Shown here: in pieces, positions 22,399 through 24,675 of the stretch
Numbering within the stretch: position 1 is the first letter of the stretch
Layout of the letters: each line of letters starts with the position of its first letter
Assembly: GCF_019711595.1 (NCBI RefSeq)
Contig: NZ_JAIGNR010000001.1
Location: forward strand, 124,001-188,000
DNA length: 64,000 nucleotides
Reading direction: 5' to 3'
DNA from: Qipengyuania sphaerica
GTDB taxonomy: Bacteria; Pseudomonadota; Alphaproteobacteria; Sphingomonadales; Sphingomonadaceae
Notes under the pieces: generated by a model
Told to the model about the DNA's origin: nothing
What the model saw: the letters and a program-made list of their open reading frames with translations, nothing else
Databases searched by the model: none
Position numbers and translations under genes: made by a program

Positions 22399-23631
22399 AT
22401 GACTGAATTACGCCGCGTAGCCATCTGCAAGCCGTTACGCACACCCGTCGGCAAGTTCCTCGGCAGCCTTGCCCCGCTCGAGGCGGGCGAACTGGGTGCG
22501 GTCATCATCAAGGCGCTAGTCGAGCGTTCGGGCATCGACCCTATGCGCATCGACGACGTGGTATTCAGCCAGGGCTATGGCAGCGGCGAGGCGCCGGCCA
22601 TCGGACGCTGGAGCTGGCTCGCGGCGGGCTATCCGATTGAGGTGCCGGGTTTCCAGCTCGACCGGCGGTGCGGATCGGGCCTGCAGGCCGTCGCGACCGC
22701 GGCGATGATGGTGCAGACCGGCATGGCCGACTGCGTGCTCGCGGGCGGGGTCGAGAGCATGTCCAATGTCGAGCATTATACCACCAAGGCGCGGCATGGC
22801 TCTCGCCTCGGCGACATGGTGCTGTGGGACCGGCTGACGCGGGGGCGCCTGATGAGCCAGCCCATCGAGCGCTTCGGGGTCATCACCGGGATGATCGAGA
22901 CGGCCGAGAACCTCGCCAAGGATTACGATATCAGCCGCGAGGCATCGGATGAATTTGCCGTGCGCAGCCATCTCAATGCAGCCAAGGCATGGGAGGAGGG
23001 CAAGTTCGACGAGCAACTCGTGCCGGTCGAGATCCCCCAGCGGCGCGGCGACCCGGTCCTCTTCGCAAAGGATGAAGGCTTCCGCGCCGATGCGAGCATG
23101 GAAGTTCTGTCCGCGCTGCGCCCGATCGACGGCAAGCGCGATCCCGATGCCATCGTCACGGCTGGCAATGCCAGCCAGCAGAACGATGCGGCCGCTGCCT
23201 GCCTCGTGGTGGCCGAGGACAAGGTGGAGGAGCTCGGCCTCGAACCGATCCTGTGGTTCCATTCGTGGAGCGCTGCAGGTTGCGATCCATCGCGCATGGG
23301 CATCGGCCCGGTCCCGGCGGTCGAGCGGCTCTTTGCTAAAAACGGCCTCGGCTGGGATGATATCGGCCTCATCGAGCTCAACGAAGCGTTCGCCCCGCAA
23401 GCGCTGGCGGTAATGAAGGGCTGGGGTTTCGCCGATAACGACAGCCGCCGCGAGATCGTCAACGTCAACGGCTCGGGCATTTCGCTCGGCCACCCCATCG
23501 GCGCGACCGGAATCCGCATCCTTGCCGACATGGCGCACGAGATGCAGCGGCGCGAGGTGCGCTACGGGCTTGAGACCATGTGCATCGGTGGCGGACAGGG
23601 CATGGCCGCCGTGTTCGAACGCGCGGCCTAG
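22399..23631 (+). CDS. Thiolase (acetyl-CoA C-acyltransferase family)
   Basis: A 410-residue thiolase. The nucleophilic Cys is in DRRCGSGLQAV, the catalytic His in GHPIGATGIRIL and the second Cys in ETMCIGGGQGMAAVFE. NASQQNDAAAACLV and LNEAFAPQALAV are further family motifs. It cleaves 3-ketoacyl-CoA with CoA or runs in reverse. It closes the three-gene acyl-CoA operon. Its TAG stop (23629-23631) is part of a CTAG that marks the left edge of a MITE-like insertion, so the insertion lies immediately after the coding region without changing it. Confidence 0.95.
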   Translation: MTELRRVAICKPLRTPVGKFLGSLAPLEAGELGAVIIKALVERSGIDPMRIDDVVFSQGYGSGEAPAIGRWSWLAAGYPIEVPGFQLDRRCGSGLQAVATAAMMVQTGMADCVLAGGVESMSNVEHYTTKARHGSRLGDMVLWDRLTRGRLMSQPIERFGVITGMIETAENLAKDYDISREASDEFAVRSHLNAAKAWEEGKFDEQLVPVEIPQRRGDPVLFAKDEGFRADASMEVLSALRPIDGKRDPDAIVTAGNASQQNDAAAACLVVAEDKVEELGLEPILWFHSWSAAGCDPSRMGIGPVPAVERLFAKNGLGWDDIGLIELNEAFAPQALAVMKGWGFADNDSRREIVNVNGSGISLGHPIGATGIRILADMAHEMQRREVRYGLETMCIGGGQGMAAVFERAA

Positions 23632-23905
23632 GGTCAGGACTCATTACTGGCGCGGAGCGTGGTTGGGAGCAATTGGCCACAGCGGAGCGGTGTGCGAGAA
23701 ACGGGAGCGCAGGAAATGCCGTGGCATTTTCAAGCTTTCGTGACGCTGCACAGTGGCCAATTGACTCAATCCTCAGGACGGCAAAATGATTTCGATCTCG
23801 AACAAAACCGCGTTTGCAAAGGCAATGAGCCTATGCTGCACGCAGTTTCGCCCGATATCTTCGTCATTTTGCCGCCACGCCCGTGCCAGTAATGAGTCCT
23901 GACCC
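23631..23905. mobile_element. MITE-like miniature inverted-repeat element, non-coding
   Basis: A ~275-bp segment has perfect 21-bp terminal inverted repeats: the left end (23631-23651) begins GGGTCAGGAC and the right end (23885-23905) finishes GTCCTGACCC. It is flanked on both sides by CTAG (23628-23631 and 23905-23908), consistent with a TA or CTAG target duplication. No frame inside resembles a transposase. The size, perfect ends and target duplication fit a non-autonomous element mobilised by a transposase encoded elsewhere. TA or YTAR-type targets are used by some IS630 and IS5-family elements, so either could be the parent. It sits between two convergent genes and keeps both stop codons intact. 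Confidence 0.85.
23670..23874. repeat. Nested inverted repeats inside the MITE-like element
   Basis: There are three internal inverted repeats. CAATTGGCCAC (23670-23680) pairs with GTGGCCAATTG (23753-23763), and this arm itself encloses AAATGCC/GGCATTT (23714-23729). CGGCAAAATGA (23779-23789) pairs with TCATTTTGCCG (23864-23874). With the outer 21-bp repeats the element can fold as a three-way junction with two side arms, either as extruded DNA or as RNA read through from either flanking gene. Confidence 0.8.
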
Positions 23906-24675
23906 TAGCTTTCGGGGAAATTCTCGATCGGCTTGAGGACGCCGTAGGTCTCTTCGAGCGGCTCGCTGCCCAGGTCGGGAAAGTCGATTGCGGCAGGCTC
24001 GCATTGGGTATCGGGCAGGCGGTCGAGCAGGTCGCGCACCAAAGTCAGCCGCCCGCGTTTCTGGTCGTTGAAATCTACGAGCGTCCACGGCGCCCATTCG
24101 GTATGCGTGGCGCGTAGCATCTCCTCCCGCGCGTTAGTGTAGGCATCGTATTTGTCGCGCGCGGCGAGGTCGATGGGAGAGAGCTTCCAGCGTTTCAGCG
24201 GGTCTTCGAGCCTCTCGCGCAGCCGCTCTTCCTGGCGCTCCTGGTCCGCGCCGAGCCAGTATTTGAACAGCAATATGCCATCGTCGACGAGCATCTTTTC
24301 GAAGGTCGGTACCTGATCGAGGAATCGCTCGACCTGCTCGGGCTCGGCGAATCCCATCACCTTTTCGACGCCTGCCCGGTTGTACCAGCTGCGGTCGAAC
24401 AGCACGATTTCGCCCGCCGTCGGCAGGTGTGCGACATAGCGCTGGAAATACCACTGGCCCTGTTCGTCCTCGGTCGGCTTGCCCAGCGCGACGATGTGGC
24501 ACTGGCGCGGATTCAGCCTTTCGGACACCGCGCGGATCGCGCCGCCCTTGCCCGCGGTATCGCGCCCTTCGAACAGCACGACGATGCGCTGGCCTGTCAC
24601 CCGCGCCCAGCGCGCCATGGCCACCAGCTCCTCCTGCATCGGCTCCAAAGCCGCTTCGTAATCCTTGCCCTTCAC
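23905..24675 (-). CDS. ppk2: Polyphosphate kinase 2 family protein
   Basis: A 256-residue P-loop kinase: Walker A VVLFEGRDTAGKGGAI (about 33-47), the lid/Walker B region EIVLFDRSWYNRAGVEKVMGF, and LSPIDLAARDKYDAYTNAREEM. It transfers phosphate between polyphosphate and nucleotides (GDP/ADP or NMPs), supporting NTP regeneration and stress energy metabolism. The class cannot be assigned with certainty, although the single-domain length fits class I. The TAG stop reads from the CTAG at 23905-23908, the right-hand duplication of the MITE-like element. It is divergent from phhA. Confidence 0.93.
   Translation of the reverse strand: MKGKDYEAALEPMQEELVAMARWARVTGQRIVVLFEGRDTAGKGGAIRAVSERLNPRQCHIVALGKPTEDEQGQWYFQRYVAHLPTAGEIVLFDRSWYNRAGVEKVMGFAEPEQVERFLDQVPTFEKMLVDDGILLFKYWLGADQERQEERLRERLEDPLKRWKLSPIDLAARDKYDAYTNAREEMLRATHTEWAPWTLVDFNDQKRGRLTLVRDLLDRLPDTQCEPAAIDFPDLGSEPLEETYGVLKPIENFPES

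Follow-up and report, generated by a model that had tools for sequence, protein, structure and literature searches.

Convergent genes that share a stop

How can a mobile element enter the very point at which two convergent genes stop and leave both of their proteins as they were? The question is raised by a locus of Qipengyuania sphaerica that lies in a window of 64,000 nucleotides (contig NZ_JAIGNR010000001.1, positions 124,001 to 188,000 of the forward strand), where 275 bp (23631-23905) stand between two TA copies at the junction of a thiolase gene and a convergent PPK2 gene, identified by Pfam matches to Thiolase_N/C and PPK2, respectively. The features of the locus, with the evidence on which each is placed, are the following:

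22399..23631, plus strand: thiolase gene; its TAG stop is made of the left TA copy and the first G of the element
23905..24675, minus strand: PPK2 gene; its TAG stop is made of the right TA copy and the last base of the element
23628..23908, minus strand: whole element with its CTAG borders (terminal inverted repeats, fold, borders)
23629..23630, no strand: left copy of the duplicated TA (empty sites, outer bases)
23906..23907, no strand: right copy of the duplicated TA (empty sites, outer bases)
23631..23655, plus strand: left terminal inverted repeat (outer part the same as insertion sequence ends)
23881..23905, minus strand: right terminal inverted repeat (arm complementarity)
23670..23763, no strand: hairpin B, with arms 23670-23689 and 23744-23763 (fold, pair counts)
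23763..23876, minus strand: hairpin A, together with a short hairpin and the few bases after it (match to covariance model R1, pair counts)

The minus strand of the window is called the A-first orientation, with hairpin A located 5' of hairpin B. The CTAG borders start at 23628 and 23905, as a first-pass annotation of the sequence had stated, and the open reading frames end at 23631 and 23905, which confirms its further claim that the left CTAG supplies the thiolase TAG (23629-23631) and the right CTAG the PPK2 TAG (23907-23905 on the opposite strand). The two stop codons are separated by 273 bp in this genome. The arms 23628-23655 and 23881-23908 are 96% complementary over 28 nt and identical over the outer 24 nt, CTAG included; the terminal inverted repeat had been described as perfect and 21 bp long, and while the repeat is indeed perfect, its length was slightly understated.

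As also claimed, no transposase-like frame lies inside the element: none of the four small open reading frames (69-77 amino acids) that overlap it and were scanned has a Pfam match. There was no Rfam match at E ≤ 1 within 23300-24200, and no intrinsic terminator (a GC-rich stem followed by a T run) within 23500-24050. The stretch 23628-23908 is small, carries terminal inverted repeats (TIRs) and has no transposase, as expected of a MITE.

Empty sites and target duplication

PPK2 matches were obtained in 49 of the 60 genus genomes, and 30 of these loci, that of the window's genome included, were read. Among these 30, the site between thiolase and PPK2 is filled by the element only in the window's genome. 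At 11 loci the site is empty and the stops of the two genes have exactly 4 bp in common, the shared 4-mer being CTAG at 8, CTAA at 2, and TTAG at 1, and at the other 18 loci the genes are separated by 850-1397 bp of other sequence. The idea that removal of the element would leave a single 4-mer stopping both genes is therefore supported by 11 relatives that keep exactly such an empty site, and the ends of both the thiolase and the PPK2 in the window's genome coincide with those in these relatives. Relative to the empty site, the element is an insertion with a target duplication.

The family of the element was scored at 72 distinct sites with detectable TIRs, so that several copies at different loci are also established, and TA is present at both borders of 42 of them. 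The outer bases of these 42 copies are C..G in 15, T..G in 8, C..A in 8, T..A in 7, and other combinations in 4. Since the outer bases vary separately on the left and on the right, which a 4-bp duplication cannot give, the duplicated unit is the TA within YTAR. The earlier proposal that the insertion duplicated its target at a double stop and left the proteins unchanged is thus upheld, but not its reading of CTAG as the duplicated unit. The 30 sites without TA on both sides, which weigh against insertion of this kind, are put down to decay, errors of the automatic boundaries, and four doubtful sites (L081, L082, L086, and L120) that come from weak model matches.

The comparison of the locus in close relatives had been proposed in the first-pass annotation, together with a search for copies, empty sites, and an insertion sequence with the same ends, and all three of these were found. 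Copies exist elsewhere and the empty sites support a shared stop 4-mer, so neither of the two outcomes named there as contrary to its reading, presence at this locus in all relatives with no other copies and unrelated flanking CTAGs, occurred.

Association with stop codons

YTAR in register is a stop codon on both strands, and TAG is formed on each side because the terminal G and C of the element complete the TA copies. When open frames of at least 60 codons were considered (the longest of the three frames, independently of gene annotation), 38 of the 42 TA-flanked sites touched one or two stops and 12 touched two convergent stops. The corresponding figures for background YTAR in the same flanks were 45 of 111 (one or both sides) and 6 of 111 (both sides), an enrichment with Fisher p values of 1.4e-8 and 2.5e-4, respectively. 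Compared with background CTAG in the same flanks (21 of 33 and 3 of 33) the enrichment was weaker, with p values of 0.009 and 0.045. Of the 32 solitary scar sites described below, 26 touch one or two stops and 8 touch two. The preference for stop codons holds across the element family. Genes run into the element on the B-first strand alone at 20 of the 42 sites, on the A-first strand alone at 6, on both at 12, and on neither at 4.

Within the whole window, CTAG was observed 41 times against 81.5 expected from dinucleotide shuffles. Five of these 41 positions (24741, 26823, 44780, 51171, and 63594) pass a crude two-sided open-frame test, which makes plausible the earlier statement that two other gene pairs in the window share a CTAG stop.

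Family and distribution

The copy in the window shares 89% identity with one from another genus (G085) and 79% with one from its own (G040). Most copies are about 264 bp long, and the first set of full copies ranged from 262 to 281 bp. We searched for the family with the covariance model R1, built on hairpin A, which matches the window copy at G000:C1:147763-147876 (the window offset being 124000). The own genome holds two R1 copies, the second of which (G000:C1:248628, L004) has unusual ends, GGCTCACAGTGC, similar flanks to those of L014 in G022 of the same genus, and 186 of 200 core positions identical to it.

R1 matches were found in 8 of the 60 genus genomes (2 of them, G041 and G057, with weak matches only), in 54 of the 396 genomes searched in the order (8 of which have nothing but weak matches: G161, G315, G434, G544, G566, G090, G629, and G649), and in 3 of 385 genomes of the class, namely the own genome and two with weak matches, all of these counts being lower bounds because above about 40 genomes the filters are stricter and few candidates are scored per genome. 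All but one of the 54 genomes of the order (53) belong to a single family. Twelve chosen genomes each carried 2-11 copies over about 85 bits; low-score matches, many of which fall at the same place on the other strand, were not counted as copies. Family matches were present in 2 Novosphingobium records among 72,556 plasmids, the phage records gave none, and a contig scan with an overly specific sequence pattern gave a single MAG contig.

Folding and covariation of the core

Folded as RNA, the window element has z scores of -12.8 (plus strand) and -13.6 (minus strand), with none of 200 shuffles as stable, and a z score of -11.4 with DNA parameters. The copies fold as a TIR stem, hairpin A, a short hairpin, and hairpin B. 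RNAalifold on 32 full copies gave 102 pairs, 84 of them with two-sided change, and paired cells make up 95.7% in the alignment. The covariation score was 0.551, compared with 0.174 for shuffled alignments and at most 0.106 for slid structures. Two explanations of this pairing were weighed.

The first, which we regard as possible if somewhat short of an even chance, is that mutation itself keeps the pairing: one arm of a DNA hairpin would template the repair of the other, leaving homogenised arms, inversions, and joint changes of the ends. Consistent with it, a comparison of L091 with L121 (both in G630) shows that the whole of hairpin B has been turned round in L091 without leaving its place, while the ends and hairpin A keep their orientation; judged by score, hairpin B is inverted in 1 of 58 copies and hairpin A in 0 of 58. 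Both ends also differ together between L125 and L135, two copies of one genome in which 184 of 200 core positions are identical whereas only 7 of 20 and 8 of 20 positions are identical in the outer 20 nt. Arm copying alone, however, predicts perfect palindromes and no strand bias, and two observations, the conservation of internal loops and the excess of G-U in hairpin A, speak against it as the sole cause.

The second, which goes beyond a passive MITE, is that the core is selected as A-first single-stranded RNA, perhaps as a 3'-UTR stability or processing element or as a small RNA. The covariation just described agrees with such selection, and so does hairpin A, which has 126 G-U against 7 A-C cells and, by pair columns, 20 against 4 (p = 0.0015); the alignment rows are related and the cells are not independent. 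The TIR stem points the same way by cells (28 against 7) but not clearly by columns (10 against 4, p = 0.18). The loop columns of hairpin A are, moreover, better conserved (0.872) than its stems (0.777). Hairpin B, in contrast, has no wobble bias (13 against 25 cells, p = 0.07), nor are the loops of this hairpin (0.738) better conserved than the stems (0.757). The direction of the incoming genes, which read B-first alone far more often than A-first alone (20 and 6 sites), is against the simplest form of the RNA idea, the lack of an Rfam match also counts against selection as RNA, and on balance we consider this second explanation rather unlikely. What best accounts for the pairing is a combination of the two: arm-templated repair, to which the inversion and the joint end changes point, together with some selection on the single-stranded A-first form, to which the wobble bias points.

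A candidate helper

The 13-mer at the end of the element occurs 130 times in 12 genomes, compared with once for the reversed control. Apart from full copies, these occurrences fall on truncated copies, on small copies with internal deletions, on what are probably scars of deletion, and on one further element, an insertion sequence (IS). In G380 this IS is 841 bp long and complete at both ends (TAGGGTCAGGACCCATTGAT / TAGGGTCAGGACTCATTGAT), with CTAG borders. Its second frame is DDE_Tnp_1 according to Pfam, and two incomplete copies of the same IS type (L258 and L260) have DUF4096 as the first frame; a Pfam scan of the first frame of L259 gave no identification. Along its whole length, the G380 IS shares 81.7% identity with plasmid elements that carry the ISKpn12 annotation (among the matches listed, 25 of 648), and the single ISKpn12-annotated copy that was read has the same ends as the MITE and the G380 IS. 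The MITE shares about 17 bp of end sequence with the IS found, and ends common to the element and an IS5-family IS are thus established. A related IS in G431, also of 841 bp, has the ends CTAGGCTCAGGACTCACTGATC, and the MITE copies L027, L097, and L131 have GGCTCAGGAC ends. In G162, which holds two MITE copies, there are 7 short C-terminal transposase matches, of which the 3 inspected carry TAGGGTCAGGACTCATTGATTG. The IS427 group label for this IS5-family candidate was assigned from its size and the 2-bp duplications; a table in PMC3281130 gives IS5/IS427 elements at 832-865 bp, with 2-bp duplications in all but one.

Some transposase match was present in 11 of the 21 element-bearing genomes, while the window's genome and 9 more gave none; a helper in the same genome would support the model without being essential to it. 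Several of the matches are only 39-47% identical or short, and these need not be helpers. As the window's own genome has no match to the related transposase now, the helper was probably only temporary in this lineage, either lost or transient.

The earlier suggestion that the transposase is supplied elsewhere agrees with the empty sites, the copies at other loci, and the IS with the same ends, from which we infer the action of an ISKpn12-like transposase on the element. An IS5-family DDE transposase of this type, supplied in trans, would have recognised the ends of the element, which would have been inserted at the TA of the CTAG that stopped both convergent genes; the TA would have been duplicated and the terminal G and C would have rebuilt TAG on each side, so that both proteins end as before. 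We consider it highly probable that the element is a non-autonomous structured MITE moved in this way, by an ISKpn12-like IS5-family transposase, into a shared-stop CTAG.

Other movers would be very improbable. An IS630/Tc1-mariner transposase, which targets TA and has been proposed for RUP (PMC2229807), would account for the TA duplication, and IS630 matches were found in 9 of 15 genomes searched, including the copy-rich G558 and G343, but the other 6 (the own genome, G383, G570, G431, G162, and G380), several of them copy-rich, have none, and the IS found with matching ends belongs to the IS5 family; this candidate is therefore disfavoured. A REPIN-like single-strand mechanism of the Y1/RAYT type has an equally slight chance, for all that it would fit the two hairpin units and the very stable folding, given the TA duplication relative to the empty site and ends that are those of a DDE-type IS. 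REPIN/RAYT elements depend on a Y1 transposase and are not known to make a target duplication.

Apparent exchange of ends and probable deletion scars

The ISKpn12-like ends are not the only ones in the family. A tree was built from 58 cores (of the 72 sites, 12 failed the orientation motif test and 2 the length limits), with end types that allow up to 2-3 mismatches and 5 rows relabelled by hand from 'other' to TCAGGAC. A second, loosely defined end type, TAGG-CGTAAACTC, is found in 11 rows and requires 9 changes on this tree, at least 5 of which are forced by well-supported branches. The scatter of the end labels is close to that of shuffled ones, with 9 changes for CGTAAAC against a shuffled mean of 10.4; it shows repeated change and says nothing on clustering.

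Five plasmid loci match the second end type, and one of them (L299) is a MITE copy. Two have an IS5-family transposase frame just inside the end: L298 (Rhizorhabdus), with DUF4096 and DDE_Tnp_1, the element measuring 854 bp with 6 mismatches of 20 at the far end, and L297 (Rhizobium), with DUF4096, where a far end was looked for in vain. L296 shows a frame of similar appearance deeper inside, and L295 has no such frame. The DDE parts of the two IS5-family lineages are 36% identical over 134 residues. Judging from these sequences, the two ends appear to have been replaced jointly, and on repeated occasions, by a second type that resembles the ends of another IS5-family lineage.

In 12 genomes we found 32 solitary sites of 15-18 bp, YTAGGGTCAGGACC(C)TAR (for example, L172, L175-L184, L245, and L247), a count that excludes crude scar labels followed by TAT (L230, L234, and L246). 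They look as if the element, or an IS whose ends are the same, had been lost almost precisely by deletion between short direct repeats that lie in these ends. Among the loci compared, none carried the complete element in one genome and a scar in a second. A solitary TIR half, a truncated copy, lies directly at the stop of a convergent gene in G085 (L300, about 1237-1264).

The family thus appears to borrow its transposase from known IS5-type insertion sequences and to exchange ends. The element is not simply an IS cut short: it carries a conserved multi-hairpin core that shows compensatory changes, its ends are interchangeable, and it has probably left deletion scars. We tentatively put forward, while leaning somewhat against it, the wider reading that a mobile structured core of the Sphingomonadaceae, not bound to any single transposase, repeatedly swaps both TIRs in one step to those of whichever IS5-family lineage is present (TAGGGTCAGGAC of the ISKpn12-like lineage or TAGG-CGTAAACTC of another), and that the core is kept by selection on its single-stranded A-first form.

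Comparison with known elements

The element resembles ISKpn12 and the IS427 group of the IS5 family in its ends, TAGGGTCAGGACYCATTG, and in inserting at TA/CTAG, but those elements encode a transposase and measure about 830-865 bp, whereas the MITE has 275 bp here, mostly about 264 bp elsewhere, and no transposase. RUP of Streptococcus pneumoniae and ERIC/RU-1 of enterobacteria are, as described in PMC2229807, likewise short, with TA at their ends and long stem-loop transcripts, and RUP has TIRs in common with an IS. RUP is, however, 107 bp long and paired with IS630-Spn1, and ERIC is 127 bp long, while the MITE described here is about 264 bp long with an IS5-family candidate helper and, unlike both, has two arms and a TIR stem, compensatory changes, and changing ends. 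The CIR repeats of Caulobacter and other alphaproteobacteria share with it the alphaproteobacterial host and two hairpin arms with a linker, but by their description in PMC2229807 CIRs have a conserved GANTC and unpaired ends, whereas the ends of the MITE pair as TIRs and the GACTC of the window copy is not conserved among copies. A title cited in PMC6471742 says of IS870 of Agrobacterium that it depends on a CTAG target for the creation of a stop codon. The stop in that case belongs to the open reading frame of the IS itself, and at the locus described here it is two host genes that have their stops restored. Among the titles and abstract beginnings listed, we found no earlier description of such an element in sphingomonads; PMC4741004, on a Sphingopyxis genome, and PMC12306157, a survey of REPs, may contain one.

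Significance

The locus provides a clean and harmless insertion, proven by empty sites, into a stop common to two genes. The copies of the family form a natural series in which to ask why bacterial MITEs keep elaborate hairpins, whether through selection on RNA or DNA structure or through arm-templated repair. They also illustrate how a non-autonomous element may switch helpers, as this one appears to do, by switching both of its ends.
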